Source: Thermoleptolyngbya sichuanensis A183 (GTDB lineage: Bacteria > Cyanobacteriota > Cyanobacteriia > Elainellales > Elainellaceae). Taken from it: a stretch of 64,000 nucleotides of DNA. Every line of letters starts with the position of its first letter. Position 1 is the first letter of the stretch. Position numbers and translations under genes: made by a program. This document shows, one piece after another, positions 12,572-18,980 of this stretch. The notes under the pieces are model-generated. The model saw only the letters and a list, made by a program, of their open reading frames with translations. It had not been told where the DNA came from and did not search any database. Where the stretch lies: contig NZ_CP053661.1 of the NCBI RefSeq assembly GCF_013177315.1, forward strand, positions 5,022,001 to 5,086,000, in the 5' to 3' direction.

Positions 12572-12873
12572 AGCAGCCGGGAAACATCCGCAACGATGCA
12601 ATACGCTTCTGTGGGTCAGTGTCTCTGCGGGATCAACGTTTCGCAGGTATTTTCTATTAGGTTACGGCTAGGTTACAGCAATTTTGTACATTTGCTACCG
12701 TTCACGCTACCTCTCAAGAGGAACGTTGCAAAATCTTACCTATCTCTGCAGAAGCCTTGCGCTGAGTCCCCCAGACGCTAATAATTGGGGCTATTCGTGA
12801 ACTCGATCGCCTAGCTTCGGTCACTGGCGCAAAGCGTTGGTGGGGGCTGGTGATTGCGCTTTTAGGAGGCTCC
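12572..12873. other. Intergenic region before the kinase gene
   Basis: No gene. A direct repeat of TAGGTTAC occurs in an AT-rich stretch (12658-12690) that could be a promoter area. The region ends with a strong ribosome binding site, AGGAGG at 12864-12869. Confidence 0.4.
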
Positions 12874-13821
12874 ATGTCCCACCGACCTATCATCCTTGGC
12901 ATTGTTGGCGATAGTGCCGCCGGAAAGACGACGTTGACTCGCGGCATCGCGCAGGTGCTCGGCGAAAACGATGTGACCGTCATCTGCACCGACGACTATC
13001 ACCGCTACGACCGCAAACAGCGGGCTGAGCTGGGAATTTCTGCCCTACATCCCGACTGCAATTATCTCGACATTATTCAGCAGCACCTCTCGCTGCTGCG
13101 GACGGGACAGCCCATTTTAAAGCCGATTTATAACCACAGCAGCGGCACCTTCGACCCGCCAGAGTATATCAAACCTAAGCGATTTGTAATTGTGGAAGGG
13201 CTGCTGGGCTATGCCACGCGAGGAATGCGCGACAGCTACGATGTTAAAGTTTATTTGGCTCCGCCGGAAGACCTGCGCCACACCTGGAAGATAAACCGCG
13301 ATACCCGCAAGCGTGGCTATACCCGTGAGCAGGTCATCAAGCAAATCCAGCAGCGCGAGTCGGACTCAGAAGCCTTTATTCGGCCGCAGCGGCAGTGGGC
13401 GGATGTCGTAGTGAGCTTCTATCCGCCCAGCGATAACTTAACGCAGGATGAACTGCTGCTGGCGGTGCGGCTGGTGCTGCGTCCCACGATTCCCCATCCA
13501 GATTTCAGCAGCATTATTGGCGACGGAGAACATGCAGGCGGTGCGGTGCGGCTGGGGCTAGACCGCGACATGGGCAAGCCTGTGGACGTAATGGAGATCG
13601 ATGCCCACGCTACAGCAGAGCAGGTGCGAGATCTGGAGCGCAGCCTGTGCCAGGAGGTGCCCTACTTGGGTCAGTTTTGCAGTCTGGAGGGCAATCCTGG
13701 AATTGGCAAGCTGATTGGCACCACTGGAGAGACGCTGCAAAGCTATCCACTCGCCATTACTCAACTGCTGATTACTTATCACATGCTGAAGGCTGCGAAC
13801 GTTTCTGCAAACGTTGCCTGA
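12874..13821 (+). CDS. Phosphoribulokinase-family kinase lacking the P-loop cysteine
   Basis: A 315-residue P-loop kinase. The ATG at 12874 is chosen because AGGAGG sits four bases upstream; an upstream GTG at 12850 is less likely. The P-loop reads GDSAAGKTT (12-20), followed by TVICTDDYHRYDRKQR (35-50) and the phosphoribulokinase-like segments KPIYNHSSGTFDPPE and VIVEGL. It resembles Calvin-cycle PRK throughout, but Ala16 stands where cyanobacterial PRK has the regulatory Cys19; the second cysteine (Cys41 equivalent, here Cys38) is kept. Thioredoxin-type disulfide switching of the PRK kind is therefore impossible. The C-terminal third is unlike classical PRK. It is probably a second, non-photosynthetic PRK/uridine-kinase-like enzyme; the substrate is unproven. 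Confidence 0.8.
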   Translation: MSHRPIILGIVGDSAAGKTTLTRGIAQVLGENDVTVICTDDYHRYDRKQRAELGISALHPDCNYLDIIQQHLSLLRTGQPILKPIYNHSSGTFDPPEYIKPKRFVIVEGLLGYATRGMRDSYDVKVYLAPPEDLRHTWKINRDTRKRGYTREQVIKQIQQRESDSEAFIRPQRQWADVVVSFYPPSDNLTQDELLLAVRLVLRPTIPHPDFSSIIGDGEHAGGAVRLGLDRDMGKPVDVMEIDAHATAEQVRDLERSLCQEVPYLGQFCSLEGNPGIGKLIGTTGETLQSYPLAITQLLITYHMLKAANVSANVA

Positions 13822-13979: not shown

Positions 13980-15272
13980 ATGGAACCCCCCTCCGAGATC
14001 GCAGTTTGTACTTTCTTACAGCGGCTTATCCCCCGCCGATCTGGGCTAAGGCGGGCGATCGCCCTCAGCACTCTCGCAGGCTGCCTTTCGATCACCGCAC
14101 TGGGTCTGACGAGTGGCTTGCAGCCTGCACCGCTACAGGCCTCTGACCACGATGACGGCGATATCGACGTTCGCAGCCGCGCCCTCAGCCTGACCGATCT
14201 CTACGTCTTTCGGGAAATTGACCAAAACACGGCGGCCCGTGCGGGCGACCTGATCTTGGTGCTAAACACGAACCCGCGATCGCTCGCTCGCCAGCAATAC
14301 TACTTCAGCAGCAACGCTCAGTACGACATCAAGATTGCGCGAGTTGCCAATGTCAACAATGCCCCCGTACCTCAGCCCGATCTGACGCTGCGGTTCACCT
14401 TCTCGCCTCCCAATAAAGGCAATCGCCAGGTCGTCACCCTGACCACCATCGACAGCAGCGGGCAGACCAGCAGCACCAATACCACCACCAGCGGCGGCCG
14501 CATTCTCACCACGTCCATCACCGATGCGGCCCCTCGGCTCAATACCGTGCGGGTGCGGGGCGCTAATCTCACGGTTTTTGCGGGGTTGCGCGAAGATCCC
14601 TTCTTTTTTGACGTGGAGGCCTACTTCCGCGTGCGGGCGGCGGTCGCAGGCTTTGGCCCAGCAGCGAGCTTCCGTTCGCCCGACACCGCCCTCGACTTTA
14701 CCAAAGGGTACAACGTCAACACTATCGTCGTGCGGGTGCCGCAGCAGCTCCTAGCAGGCGGCAGAGCGGTCAACACCTTCGACCTCTGGGGCACGATCAA
14801 CATCCGCGACCCCCGCACAGGTCAATTTACCCAGGTGGAGCAGATTGCCCGGCCCGGCATCAACGAACTGCTGACCACTGGCTCCCAAACCATCTACGAA
14901 ACCTATAACCGGACGCAGCCTGCCCGGTTTAACTCATCCGACAGCACCGTAATTCGAAACAACATCACAGCCGTTCTGAAACTGGTGGGCAACAACGACA
15001 CGCGGGCAAACGCGCTGGTGCGGGCGCTGCTGCCAGACGTAATGCGGATTGACACCACGGTCCCCAGCGGCTATGGCAACAAGTTCAATGCGCTGGGTTC
15101 CCCGGCAGCAGGCCGGCGGCTGCTGGATGACGTGGTAGATGCGTCGCTAAACATCGTAACCAACGGGGCTATTACCACCGACAATGTTTCCTACAACGGC
15201 ACACCCGGCAATCCGGCGCAGGGGCATCAGCCGCTGGCGACCACTTTCCCCTATTTAGCACCACCCAATTAG
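13980..15272 (+). CDS. Exported DUF4331 protein
   Basis: A 430-residue protein. A twin-arginine-free, Sec-type hydrophobic stretch (about 27-48) precedes a likely cleavage site before SDHDDGD near residue 55. The mature part matches DUF4331: SDHDD at the start, LTDLYVF, and the hallmark FAGLREDPFFFD, followed by a long beta-rich region. The family is of unknown function and is exported or surface-exposed. Here it heads a same-strand set with a TPR protein and a Ni/Co exporter, an arrangement I believe recurs in other bacteria. The acidic Asp/His-rich mature N-terminus could bind metal; this is inference. AGGAG lies 12 bases upstream of the ATG. Confidence 0.85.
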   Translation: MEPPSEIAVCTFLQRLIPRRSGLRRAIALSTLAGCLSITALGLTSGLQPAPLQASDHDDGDIDVRSRALSLTDLYVFREIDQNTAARAGDLILVLNTNPRSLARQQYYFSSNAQYDIKIARVANVNNAPVPQPDLTLRFTFSPPNKGNRQVVTLTTIDSSGQTSSTNTTTSGGRILTTSITDAAPRLNTVRVRGANLTVFAGLREDPFFFDVEAYFRVRAAVAGFGPAASFRSPDTALDFTKGYNVNTIVVRVPQQLLAGGRAVNTFDLWGTINIRDPRTGQFTQVEQIARPGINELLTTGSQTIYETYNRTQPARFNSSDSTVIRNNITAVLKLVGNNDTRANALVRALLPDVMRIDTTVPSGYGNKFNALGSPAAGRRLLDDVVDASLNIVTNGAITTDNVSYNGTPGNPAQGHQPLATTFPYLAPPN

Positions 15273-15275
15273 GGT

Positions 15276-15302
15276 AGGACTGACGCAGTTGCGATCAGTC
15301 CT
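15276..15302. repeat. Perfect hairpin directly after the DUF4331 stop
   Basis: AGGACTGA (15276-15283) pairs with TCAGTCCT (15295-15302) around an 11-base loop, CGCAGTTGCGA. Arm plus loop resemble the end of the 88-bp MITE-like element (AGGACTTACGCAGTTG), so it may be a remnant. No T-run follows, so it is not a classical terminator, but it could stabilise or attenuate the transcript. Confidence 0.6.
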
Positions 15303-15444
15303 GTAGAGGTTAGGGGTGAGGGTGAGAGTTTCTCTCTCAGCGCCAGATCAGGGAGTTAAGGTGTTTCTCCTGATAGGCTTCGATTCCTGTTCTCACCGGG
15401 CAAGATTCCCCAACCCCTGAACCAGGGCACTAATATACTTCACG

Positions 15445-15569
15445 CAGCAATTTCAGCCCTCACCTTAAATCCCTCTCCCAGAGCGGGCGAGGGACTTCAA
15501 CCCCATATCTAGCTCCCCTTCTCCCCGCTTGGGAGAAGGGGTTGGGGGATGAGGGCAGTAAGTTTGCTG
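15445..15569. repeat. REP-like palindromic element, copy b
   Basis: Bounded by CAGCAA...GCCCTCA and the inverted TGAGGGC...TTTGCTG. The interior has CCCTCTCCCAGAGCGGGCGAG and CTCCCCTTCTCCCCGCTTGG, which form two strong stems. It lies between the DUF4331 and TPR genes, in the transcript if they are one operon. Confidence 0.75.
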
Positions 15570-15624
15570 TCTCAAGTCTGTTAGTGCCTAAACCAGGGCA
15601 GCTTTTCAAGCTAAAGGAATTGTC

Positions 15625-17040
15625 ATGAACACGCTGAATAGTTTGAGTTCCAGCAGGCGGGGATGGCTGCTGGCGGCGGTGGGATTGTCGGCCACCAGTG
15701 CCGTGCTGTGGTTCACGCAGGCAGGCGGGCCGGCACTAAATCGACTGGGCGATCGCCCTTCTCGCCATCTCGATGCCCCCTACCGCTACCCGTTTTTCGT
15801 TAGCACCTCCGGCAGCGCAACGGCACGACTAGAGCAGGAAATTGCCCATTTTCAGGAGCGCGTCCGGCAGATGCCTGCCCAGAGCGTAGCGCAAGGACTG
15901 GAGCAGTCGGCGCTGGCGCTGGGCTATTTGAAAATGGCGCGGCTGACAGGGCAAAGCCACTGGTATCTGCTGGCAGACCAGACGGCGCAGGAGGCGCTAA
16001 GGTCCATGCCAGAACACCCAGAGGCGATCGCCGTGTTGGCACGGGTGGCAGAGGCACGGCACGACTTTGATCAAGCACTGGCGCTGGCAGTACAACTGGA
16101 TGGGTCGAAAGAGGCGCTGAGCGTCCAGGCAGCGGTGCATCTGGCAAGAGGCAACCTGGTAGCAGCGGCTGAGGCGGGCGATCGCCTCGTTGATCAAACC
16201 CTGAGTCCAGCCGCCTTTACCCAACAAGCGCTAGTGCGGGCAGCCCAAGGAGACGATGAGGGCGCATTGCAAAGTTTCCAATACGCCCTAGAGGTTGAGG
16301 AAGCAGGCGATCTCGGCAGTGCCGCCCGCACGCGCACGCTGCTCGGCCGGTTCTATTACGAACGGGGACAGCTTGATTTGGCGCGGGGTCTGTATCATGA
16401 GGCGCTGCGAATTTTGCCGAGTTACCTGCCCGCCCGCCTGAACCTGGCCCAGTTGGCGCTGCGGCAGGGGCGCTATGGGCTGGCGGCACAATACTATCGC
16501 CAGGTCGAGGACATGGGCAGCGCCGCGACAGTTTACGAACCGCTGGTGCAGCGGGGACAGGCCCGACTGAAGCCCCTGCAACACCAGCCCGCCCAGGCAG
16601 AAATCCACTGGGCAAACGCCGAACTGCAACTGCGGCAAACGCTGGCAGAGACATCGGCGGATTCTAGCGCCTTTGGCTTTGGGCATCGGCGTGACCTGGC
16701 GCGATTGCTGCTGGAGCGGGGCCGCCCAGAAGACACCGCCGAGGCGCTGGCGCTGATGGAAGCGGAGGTCAAGCAGCGGCGCGACGCAGACACGCTCGAT
16801 ACCTACGCCTGGGCGCTGGCACAGATGGGGCGCTGGCAGGAGGCTAGGGAGGTGGTTCAAGCGGCGATCGCCCTGGGCACTCGTGATGCAGCCCTGTGCG
16901 ATCGCGCCGCCCAAATCGAGGAAGCCCTGGGCAACCCAGCGCAGGCCGCCGCCTATCGCCAGCAAATGCTTGAGATCGATCCCCAATTTGATCAAAACGC
17001 ACGTCATGCCGCTGGTCTAGGCATAGGCTTGGGCGGCTAG
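15625..17040 (+). CDS. Membrane-anchored TPR protein
   Basis: A 471-residue protein with an N-terminal anchor or signal (hydrophobic about 13-30), then tetratricopeptide-like helical repeats from about residue 85 to the end; clear TPR consensus appears in LGRFYYERGQLDLARGLYHE and YLPARLNLAQLALRQGRYGL. It is probably held on the outer face of the plasma membrane or in the periplasm, where it would act as a protein-interaction platform. It sits between an exported DUF4331 protein and a Ni/Co exporter on the same strand, so I infer that it works with them. AAGGA lies six bases upstream of the ATG. No enzymatic motif is visible. Confidence 0.8.
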   Translation: MNTLNSLSSSRRGWLLAAVGLSATSAVLWFTQAGGPALNRLGDRPSRHLDAPYRYPFFVSTSGSATARLEQEIAHFQERVRQMPAQSVAQGLEQSALALGYLKMARLTGQSHWYLLADQTAQEALRSMPEHPEAIAVLARVAEARHDFDQALALAVQLDGSKEALSVQAAVHLARGNLVAAAEAGDRLVDQTLSPAAFTQQALVRAAQGDDEGALQSFQYALEVEEAGDLGSAARTRTLLGRFYYERGQLDLARGLYHEALRILPSYLPARLNLAQLALRQGRYGLAAQYYRQVEDMGSAATVYEPLVQRGQARLKPLQHQPAQAEIHWANAELQLRQTLAETSADSSAFGFGHRRDLARLLLERGRPEDTAEALALMEAEVKQRRDADTLDTYAWALAQMGRWQEAREVVQAAIALGTRDAALCDRAAQIEEALGNPAQAAAYRQQMLEIDPQFDQNARHAAGLGIGLGG

Positions 17041-17114
17041 CGAAATGACATTCATCGTTTGTATTTGCGGATCAGTTCTATTCTCTTCTACTGCATGGAT
17101 TCATGCATTGATCT

Positions 17115-18980
17115 ATGGATAAACTCATGCGTAAACCAGGTCGCTCTCGATACTGGGCGTTGTTCTCTGGAGTCGTCACAGTGATGCTGTGGCTGGGACT
17201 GGCGGCTCCTGGGCAGGCCCACTGGGCAGATTTGTCCGTTGCGGAAGTGCGCGTGGCAGAATCCACTGTGGAAATGATGCTCACCTATCCAACCGGGCTA
17301 ACGGCGTTTGCCGATGGCGATCGCAACGGTCAACTCTCTCCCCAGGAAGTGCGCGACCATGCCACCACGCTACAGGCGTTTTTGGGCAGCCAGATTCGGA
17401 TGCTGGATGGCGATCGCCGCCCCGGTACGCTCACCCTGGAACCGCTGGAAGCCAATGCACCTTTGCCTAACAGCGTCCGCCTCGCGCCAAACACCACCCA
17501 CAGCACGCTACGCCTTACCTTTGCCTGGCCCCAGCCTGTTCAGGGGGTGCAAATTCACTACGGCCTGTTCCTGCCCGATGTGCCCACGGCAAGCTGCCTG
17601 ACCACAATTCTACAAAACGGGCGGCTGCGGACGTTTCTGTTTACCCCAAGGCAACAAACCCTGGCCCTTGCGCCAGGACTGCCCGGACTCGGCACAGGGG
17701 AACTGCTGCTGGCGATCGCCGGAGCGTTTCTCTGGGGCGCGATTCACTCCATGTCGCCAGGGCACGGCAAAACGATCGTCGGCGCTTATCTGGTAGGCGA
17801 ACGCGCCACGCCCAAACATGCAGTATTCCTAGCGCTGACGACCACCATCACCCATACCCTCGGCGTGTTTGCGCTGGGGCTAGCGACGCTGTTCGCGGCT
17901 CAGTACGTGCTTCCAGAGCAGCTTTATCCCTGGCTAAGTCTGGCATCGGGCGCGATGGTGGTTGGGATTGGTCTGAATCTGCTGCATCGTCGGCTACGTT
18001 CAAAACCCGATTCGCATCAGCATGACCTAGTACATCATAATCTGCATTCCAGCTTGAGTTCCAAATCACCGTCTAGCAGTCATTTCCATTCACATCCTCA
18101 GCCTCATAAATCTCATAAGTCTGCCGAGCCTAATCAAGTGTATTCAGAAGATCATTATCATTCACAGAATTTGGTTCATGTGCCTGCCCTGGTTCGTGCT
18201 CACGATTCCTACAGGCTGCAAAAAAATCCGCGTGGGCTTCCCCATAGCCGTTCTCCTGAACATTCCCACTGTGCTTCTCAGGACGATCGAGGAGATTCTC
18301 ATAAGCATCCTAATAGCCATGCCTATGGAAATTCCCATGAACATTCTCATAGACATCCGTATGAGAATTTCCATAAATCTTCTCGCGAGGATAGTCTTGA
18401 GTACCCGAATGAGCCTGTTTGCCAGCCTTCTCATGAGCATTCGCAGGAGTCCTCTCACAAGCATTCCCGTGAGCATTCTCATGAATACTCCCACGGACAT
18501 TCCCAGAGGCATTCCCATAAATACTCCCAGGAGCATTCTCATGAACACTCCCGCGGACATTCTCATGAACACTCCCGCGGACATTCTCATGAACACTCCC
18601 GCGGACATTCTCATGAACACTCTCAGGGGCATTCTCATCTGCCGCCCGGAGCGGATGGTGAACCTGTGACTTGGCGCAGTCTGGTAGCGCTTGGCGTTTC
18701 GGGAGGGCTGGTGCCCTGTCCGGCGGCGCTGGTGCTGCTGCTGAGCGCGATCGCCCTGGGTAAAACTGGGTTTGGGCTAGTGCTGGTGCTGGCTTTTAGC
18801 CTGGGGCTGGCAGGCGTGCTGACGGGGTTGGGGCTGCTGCTGGTGCGGGCCAAGCACTGGTTTTGGCGAGTGCCTACGCCCCAGCGGTGGACGCATATCT
18901 TACCCTTGGTTAGCGCGGCGGGCATTACGCTGCTGGGCGTGGGGATTTCGCTTAAGGCGCTTACGCAACTATTGCTGTGA
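17115..18980 (+). CDS. Ni/Co exporter (RcnA/NicO-like) with EF-hand loop and giant His-rich loop
   Basis: A 621-residue fusion-like protein. A signal or first membrane helix (15-32) is followed by an exported domain (about 36-195) that contains a textbook EF-hand calcium loop, DGDRNGQLSPQE (67-78). The transporter core follows: GAIHSMSPGHGKT matches the HX(4)GHGK-type motif of NicO/RcnA nickel-cobalt exporters, and a second half begins at GVSGGLVPCPAALVLLL. Between the halves is a roughly 210-residue loop (about 295-510) packed with His, Ser and Glu, its end encoded by perfect 24-base repeats of HSHEHSRG. His-rich loops in this family bind metal before export. Expected function: efflux of Ni2+ or Co2+ across the plasma membrane. 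The EF-hand in the exported domain is unusual. Confidence 0.88.
   Translation: MDKLMRKPGRSRYWALFSGVVTVMLWLGLAAPGQAHWADLSVAEVRVAESTVEMMLTYPTGLTAFADGDRNGQLSPQEVRDHATTLQAFLGSQIRMLDGDRRPGTLTLEPLEANAPLPNSVRLAPNTTHSTLRLTFAWPQPVQGVQIHYGLFLPDVPTASCLTTILQNGRLRTFLFTPRQQTLALAPGLPGLGTGELLLAIAGAFLWGAIHSMSPGHGKTIVGAYLVGERATPKHAVFLALTTTITHTLGVFALGLATLFAAQYVLPEQLYPWLSLASGAMVVGIGLNLLHRRLRSKPDSHQHDLVHHNLHSSLSSKSPSSSHFHSHPQPHKSHKSAEPNQVYSEDHYHSQNLVHVPALVRAHDSYRLQKNPRGLPHSRSPEHSHCASQDDRGDSHKHPNSHAYGNSHEHSHRHPYENFHKSSREDSLEYPNEPVCQPSHEHSQESSHKHSREHSHEYSHGHSQRHSHKYSQEHSHEHSRGHSHEHSRGHSHEHSRGHSHEHSQGHSHLPPGADGEPVTWRSLVALGVSGGLVPCPAALVLLLSAIALGKTGFGLVLVLAFSLGLAGVLTGLGLLLVRAKHWFWRVPTPQRWTHILPLVSAAGITLLGVGISLKALTQLLL
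18534..18638. repeat. 24-bp in-frame tandem repeat inside the Ni/Co exporter
   Basis: Three perfect copies of a 24-base unit encoding His-Ser-His-Glu-His-Ser-Arg-Gly (18534-18557, 18558-18581, 18582-18605), a fourth with substitutions (18606-18629) and a partial fifth. More degenerate copies extend upstream to about 18420. The perfect units suggest recent expansion and likely length variation between strains. Confidence 0.92.

Follow-up and report, generated by a model that had tools for sequence, protein, structure and literature searches.

In a 64,000-nucleotide stretch of the Thermoleptolyngbya sichuanensis A183 genome (contig NZ_CP053661.1, positions 5,022,001 to 5,086,000; here, the window), three genes follow one another on the plus strand and encode an exported protein of the DUF4331 family, a tetratricopeptide repeat (TPR) protein, and a NicO-family permease with an exported N-terminal domain (Table 1). 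The genes are separated by 352 bp (DUF4331-TPR) and 74 bp (TPR-permease), and neither gap contains a reading frame of 100 amino acids or more; the uninterrupted order on one strand given in the original prediction, which was made from the sequence alone, thus stands. Promoter- and terminator-like patterns in the cassette are not more frequent than in shuffled sequence. The source genome (5.53 Mb, one contig) has a single DUF4331 match, and the cassette permease is its only NicO match. We found no paper on DUF4331 in the literature searched; some may exist under other names or outside that literature.

DUF4331 is present in 18 of 291 genomes drawn evenly from the phylum of the window and in 18 of 40 relatives, as well as in 14 of 249 genomes from the phylum of a Noviherbaspirillum locus and 22 of 119 from that of an acidobacterial locus. 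A GTDB scan with one classical DUF4331 alignment gave 487 confirmed matches, of which the best 80 were kept, and two queries found 17 and 34 plasmid records; a single scan with the window protein as query confirmed no viral relatives. We read 161 neighborhoods: 38 cyanobacterial (including the window), 80 from GTDB, 9 plasmid regions picked for variety, 14 pseudomonad, and 20 acidobacterial, the last from 16 of the 22 genomes (five weak matches were left out, and one was already among the 80). Two GTDB stretches duplicating genomes already in the set were dropped. A locus was counted as assessable if 3 kb or more of DNA was available downstream of an exported DUF4331 or if both partners had already been seen (n = 137), and as a cassette if TPR and permease genes were found on its strand within 6 kb; the profiles used in this census were derived from the same loci that were counted.

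Both partners accompany DUF4331 at 101 of the 137 assessable loci, comprising 25 of 26 cyanobacterial, 58 of 72 GTDB, 5 of 8 plasmid, 7 of 13 pseudomonad, and 6 of 18 acidobacterial loci. These represent 100 stretches, because a second DUF4331 gene at the end of L169 recounts the same pair. The gene order differs at six of the 101, and the same test applied upstream of DUF4331 finds both partners at five loci. Complete cassettes occur in six phyla (Cyanobacteriota, Pseudomonadota, Verrucomicrobiota, Nitrospirota, Actinomycetota, and, via the sampled phylum, Acidobacteriota) and in annotated plasmid records of Nostoc, Streptomycetaceae/Streptomyces, and Lichenicola; a Bacteroidota plasmid has DUF4331-TPR only. 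The expected enrichment of DUF4331 near metal permeases is therefore borne out by neighborhood conservation. The gene set is real, old, and also carried on plasmids, and its three members almost certainly form a conserved functional unit.

Other arrangements fall outside the 101. TPR and HupE genes are divergent from DUF4331 at L086 and lie downstream on the opposite strand at L087 and L098. Among 10 loci with a leaderless DUF4331, none has both partners, one has a TPR gene (L072), and one has a HupE gene (L166, Rhizobium). At L072 (L072:6050-8275), the leaderless DUF4331 is followed by a TPR gene apparently also without a leader, possibly a cytosolic version of DUF4331-TPR. The L098 and L128 clusters have two extra HupE/UreJ-type genes (those of L128 are verified by Pfam), and a small exported protein is encoded downstream of DUF4331 in L087, L098, and L128 (e.g., L128:8687-10521), the L128 copy being without a Pfam match. 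In a Streptomycetaceae plasmid cassette, a gene annotated as a class F sortase lies between DUF4331 and TPR (L168:6839-7582).

In agreement with the Asp/His cluster originally noted at the start of the mature DUF4331 protein, SDHDDGD directly follows the likely signal peptide of the window protein. An ATCUN (amino-terminal Cu and Ni binding) site is a free N-terminal Xaa-Zaa-His in which Zaa is not Pro (PMC12929937). The window sequence (SDH) fits this definition if cut at the predicted A54/S55 (a slash marks the cut), and 148 exported DUF4331 proteins with an N terminus have the same pattern. A cut leaving (S/A)-x-H obeys the (-3,-1) rule in 146 of these 148, the two misses having Pro at -3, while cuts at other offsets obey it in 0 to 109, the 109 being mostly SSH types cut two residues further on. 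Since the tripeptide was located by patterns containing (S/A)-x-H, residue +1 is not an independent count here; residues -1 and -3 are. Eight DUF4331 frames had no pattern match, namely, six pieces lacking the N terminus, the L072 protein, and the L144 protein, whose start was called too far upstream and in which the motif is otherwise visible. A cruder earlier pick of the cut gave 133 of 142. At position 5 of the predicted tail, 154 of 157 proteins have Glu or Asp, and a SHRE motif is present at all 80 GTDB loci, independently of alignment cutting; in alignments A2 and A4, rows were cut at the motif, and the invariance of His3 and His1 there is partly by construction.

The 10 leaderless proteins start with M/V-S-x-H (judged by eye for L072, MSDHFDG), and removal of Met would turn these starts into NH2-S-x-H. 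Exported or leaderless, DUF4331 N termini thus appear to be placed for processing to NH2-(S/A)-x-His, an ATCUN-like Cu/Ni motif. We infer this site, which is new here, because an ATCUN site requires an unblocked N-terminal amine two positions ahead of the His, and two different processing routes would each leave one in front of a conserved His; ATCUN-type binding by DUF4331 seems to us slightly more probable than not. Two other uses of the N terminus were considered. A catalytic nucleophile role of the N-terminal Ser, as a rule, was rejected because Ala takes its place in 10 of the 148 proteins, and a cut two residues later, leaving His1, suits the SSH types yet only 4 of the 43 non-SSH proteins.

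Further DUF4331 residues are invariant, among them D19 and those of the GRR and DDxVD segments. The structure model of the window protein is poor, with a predicted local distance difference test (pLDDT) score of 61. That of a classical relative, L140, is good (pLDDT 86; predicted template modeling score [pTM] 0.89) and has a beta-rich part and then helices; its residues 1 to 15 are unordered at pLDDT under 50, as expected of a tail. Foldseek gave no match at an E value of 0.001 or better for either model, VIA-align gave a best Z score of 5.2 to an antibody fold, and sequence searches found no solved relatives; we claim neither a known nor a new fold. A DUF4331 profile had one match among solved structures, a xylanase at an E value of 0.32, which was taken as chance. 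Judged by eye, DUF4331 appears to be split into two exported proteins at L043:2955-4403, L045:6305-7896, L046:8512-10097, and L185:6634-8087, where the N-terminal half starts with (S/A)DH and the C-terminal half has a Cys ending its signal stretch, as in lipoproteins. The split genes suggest two separable domains.

The window TPR protein has a hydrophobic N-terminal stretch, likely an anchor or a signal, and the membrane anchor of the original prediction is drawn from that stretch only. In the window permease, simple hydropathy suggests a signal peptide, then the exported domain that was originally proposed, some 160 residues long, and roughly six hydrophobic segments in the membrane. In 92 of 99 permease homologues, an unconstrained pick places the first His that comes after the hydrophobic stretch of the signal at a (-3,-1)-compatible site; the figure is 95 of 99 if a small residue or Pro is required before the His, and two of the 101 permease proteins gave no His pick. 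The profile of the exported domain weakly matches EF-hand proteins in PDB. Ca, which the original prediction named beside Ni/Co, may plausibly occupy a structural site in the exported domain, as the conserved loop suggests; nothing points to Ca as cargo. The His-rich loop of the permease is expected to be cytoplasmic, given the topology inferred from the exported N-terminal domain. Two long frames across its repeat (window positions 18162 to 18638, minus strand, and 18178 to 18669, plus strand) are probably shadows of repeated permease codons, not genes.

TABLE 1 Coordinates of the cassette genes and their predicted features in the window
Feature	Start	End	Strand	Description
DUF4331 gene	13980	15272	+	430 amino acids; Pfam PF14224, 198.6 bits (cut-off 27), profile positions 1-421 of 421
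Predicted mature N terminus of DUF4331, Ser-Asp-His (residues 55-57)	14142	14150	+	ATCUN-like NH2-x-x-His; cut LQA/SDH (A54/S55)
TPR gene	15625	17040	+	471 amino acids; TPR Pfam families (TPR_2, 4.4e-15); homologues 3' of DUF4331 in relatives
NicO-family permease gene	17115	18980	+	621 amino acids; exported N-terminal domain; Pfam PF03824, 58.6 bits (cut-off 27.7)
Permease exported domain	17220	17690	+	Predicted mature start His1 (residue 36), PGQA/HWAD
EF-hand-type loop DGDRNGQLSPQE in permease exported domain	17313	17348	+	Conservation of 90% or more at the first Asp and the last Glu (38 rows)
His-rich loop between membrane segments 3 and 4	18006	18650	+	215 residues, 49 His

The permease slot is filled by HupE/UreJ-type proteins in 72 of the 100 cassette stretches and by NicO-type proteins in 28 (20 cyanobacterial, 4 acidobacterial, 3 plasmid, and 1 GTDB), a ratio that is no census of nature because the 80 GTDB matches to a classical query predominate in the set. 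Pfam confirmed HupE_UreJ_2 in the three relatives scanned (L154, L140, and L045); this family (PF13795) has no match in the window permease, nor in the window genome at an E value of 0.001. The L045 permease couples an exported domain matching that of the window (1e-33) to a HupE_UreJ_2 membrane part, and it has no match to the window's membrane part. The permease can thus be swapped while the exported domain, DUF4331, and TPR are retained.

The window permease was originally labeled an exporter, and this label is not upheld. Its score against the NCBIfam nickel/cobalt efflux model NF007454 (RcnA-type) is 116.5 bits, below the cut-off of 195; most cassette stretches examined have HupE/UreJ-type permeases; and the linkage to NikR described below suggests uptake. 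The (R/K)HAXDADH(I/L) motif of NiCoT transmembrane segment 2 (PMC7689651) is absent from the window permease, which has HSMSPGHGK at residue 211 instead. Published accounts (PMC4284471, PMC7689651) present HupE/UreJ proteins as importers of nickel or cobalt, and import is favored because such proteins occupy the permease slot. On balance, the cassette probably works in the import direction, though less certainly so in the window organism, whose genome has no NikR and possesses another Ni/Co importer.

Genes next to the cassette in relatives point to nickel. In Nitrospira moscoviensis (L154), DUF4331 is followed by a TonB-like gene that scores under its Pfam cut-off, by TPR, and by HupE_UreJ_2; NikR and the gene of a TonB receptor (Plug domain) lie on the other side of DUF4331 and are divergent from it. 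At L201, DUF4331, TPR, NicO, and NikR are on one strand, with NikR 260 bp past NicO. NikR lies 2.8 kb beyond the cassette at L116 and 3.3 kb from a lone DUF4331 at L109, where the intervening genes look molybdate related by eye. A DUF4198 gene comes next after DUF4331 at 7 of the 80 GTDB loci (L082, L085, L095, L096, L102, L111, and L113) and at L200, and one DUF4198 protein binds Ni with a dissociation constant of 18 nM (PMC12537917). The window genome itself encodes urease, which counts in favor of nickel acquisition. TonB-receptor genes, a weak linkage, are close to many cassettes, and 12 in the GTDB set (11 from related betaproteobacteria and one other) are just upstream on the same strand. 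The idea that the exported partners have a metal role is thus supported both by their N-terminal metal-binding-type motifs and by the NikR and DUF4198 linkage. The cassette very likely handles metal, and nickel is a reasonable, if less secure, choice as its main cargo.

The cassette shares features with several known systems. RcnA, of the NicO family like the window permease, is a nickel/cobalt efflux protein with a His-rich loop in common; the window permease scores below the NF007454 cut-off and adds an exported N-terminal domain and the cassette partners. The UreH and HupE-UreJ importers have a six-helix permease in common with it, and UreH also has a His-rich loop between helices III and IV (PMC4284471). 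HupE-UreJ types fill the same cassette slot in relatives, whereas the window has NicO fused to an exported domain and no HupE_UreJ_2 match. The nickel-binding DUF4198 proteins (PMC12537917) are, like DUF4331, exported with a metal-type N terminus; they form a separate family and have His1, versus His3 in DUF4331.

The closest parallel is the "anglerase" of Franco Cairo et al. 2025 (PMC12537917), in which His1 domains on HupE/UreJ-2 bind Cu (Ang-1, 74 nM; Ang-2, 62 nM); Ang-1 binds Ni too (220 nM). Anglerases have the same signal peptide, His1-start exported domain, and Ni/Co-type permease, and the HupE-type members of the cassette match them by sequence. His1 right after the signal peptide is also predicted in the window permease, whose membrane domain is NicO instead of HupE/UreJ-2, and the cassette adds DUF4331 and TPR. 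In a word search, that paper mentions none of DUF4331, TPR, tetratricopeptide, NicO, and ATCUN. Solved Ang-1 (9GCE) was not among the PDB matches of the permease exported domain in sequence and profile searches.

We propose a three-part envelope module for metal acquisition, most likely of Ni(II), with Co(II) or Cu(II) possible, that would combine a chelator relay with import; we put the chances of this proposal at about even. DUF4331 would be exported, and signal cleavage would leave a flexible NH2-Ser-Asp-His tail that could chelate metal in ATCUN fashion, perhaps aided by the acidic residue 5. The TPR protein may be a scaffold bringing DUF4331 to the permease, whose exported domain, starting with His1 as anglerase domains do, would take over the metal. 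The NicO membrane part would then move it inward, and the His-rich loop might buffer it inside. In a broader and more tentative form, DUF4331 proteins may be nickel carriers defined by an NH2-(Ser/Ala)-x-His-x-(Asp/Glu) tail enforced by signal peptidase or Met removal; together with a TPR protein as adaptor and a NicO/HupE permease bearing a His1 domain, they could constitute a widespread, undescribed envelope pathway for nickel acquisition, from chelator to chelator.

Several observations weigh against nickel import by the cassette. No NiFe hydrogenase was found in the window genome, nor a NikR_C match, the sign by which NikR-controlled nickel uptake would be recognized. CbiM and CbiQ belong to another Ni/Co importer of this genome (L210), so that the cassette is not the only Ni/Co route and is ruled out as the sole Ni importer; a cobalamin riboswitch lies about 5 kb from this second system, on the opposite strand, but is not enough to fix its substrate. 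NikR is found in only 4 of the 161 stretches (with one seed) and is adjacent in two (L154 and L201), TonB-receptor genes are common in general, DUF4198 is not exclusive to nickel (papers on Zur and iron regulation are also listed for the family), and the published His1 domains prefer Cu over Ni. No metal riboswitch is present in the window cassette (the sole match, to a microRNA family and well short of the gathering score, is due to chance), none was found near the cassettes of 10 sampled relatives, and no upstream motif is common to the cassettes apart from a widespread GCGATCGC-type palindrome. Promoter- and terminator-like patterns in the cassette are not more frequent than in shuffled sequence.

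There are three other explanations. With another importer in the window genome, the cassette might serve detoxification, with NicO expelling cytoplasmic Ni/Co as RcnA does and DUF4331 sequestering it once it reaches the periplasm. The efflux model is the best NCBIfam match of the window permease, and the His-rich loop is RcnA-like (67 amino acids with 17 His in E. coli RcnA; PMC11247825). However, the efflux score is below the cut-off, UreH importers have a His-rich loop in the same place, described HupE/UreJ members import, and NikR adjoins two cassettes; this explanation is unlikely, though worth keeping in view. Alternatively, since both ATCUN and mono-His-brace sites have a strong affinity for Cu(II) (a very high one in ATCUN peptides), the module could capture copper or mixed metals and feed or buffer copper. 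The NikR and DUF4198 neighbors and the Ni/Co identity of the permease families speak for a different metal, no copper gene was seen beside the listed cassettes (by eye, with no systematic census), and we regard a copper role as quite improbable.

DUF4331 and TPR could also be an unrelated envelope structure or enzyme, with a structural metal (e.g., Ca or Zn) at the N terminus that the permease merely supplies. One or both same-strand partners are missing at 36 of the 137 assessable exported loci (TPR alone at 10, permease alone at 3, and neither at 23, five of which have DUF4198 adjacent), which also weighs against nickel import; moreover, leaderless cytosolic forms exist, and the invariance of D19, GRR, and DDxVD may mean that the fold has an active site of its own. 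This explanation would leave the association with a permease to be explained, and a structural metal at the N terminus sits poorly with a tail that is predicted to be unordered in the better model; we consider it similarly improbable. Envelope metal acquisition by the three proteins remains the reading we prefer.

A few features of the surroundings may be added. The DUF4331-TPR spacer (window positions 15273 to 15624) contains a repeated palindromic element of the CCCTCTCCC / GGGAGAAGGGG type. A gene of the phosphoribulokinase/uridine kinase family lies immediately 5' of the cassette (window positions 12850 to 13821), and a homologue is likewise 5' in the same-genus genome L070; none was found in the other cyanobacterial stretches searched. 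Elsewhere in the window genome, an exported protein with a likely A/HGVD start precedes the CbiM-CbiQ-ATPase system (L210:6722-9848) and is possibly another N-terminal His protein beside a Ni/Co importer.

If the proposal is correct, a widespread family of no known role would gain a specific and testable one, the capture of metal in the envelope by an ATCUN-like tail. The His1 anglerase permeases would be extended from single proteins to a three-gene system that spans phyla and plasmids. Our findings also suggest that, where NicO genes of this kind are read as exporters, the direction may be wrong.

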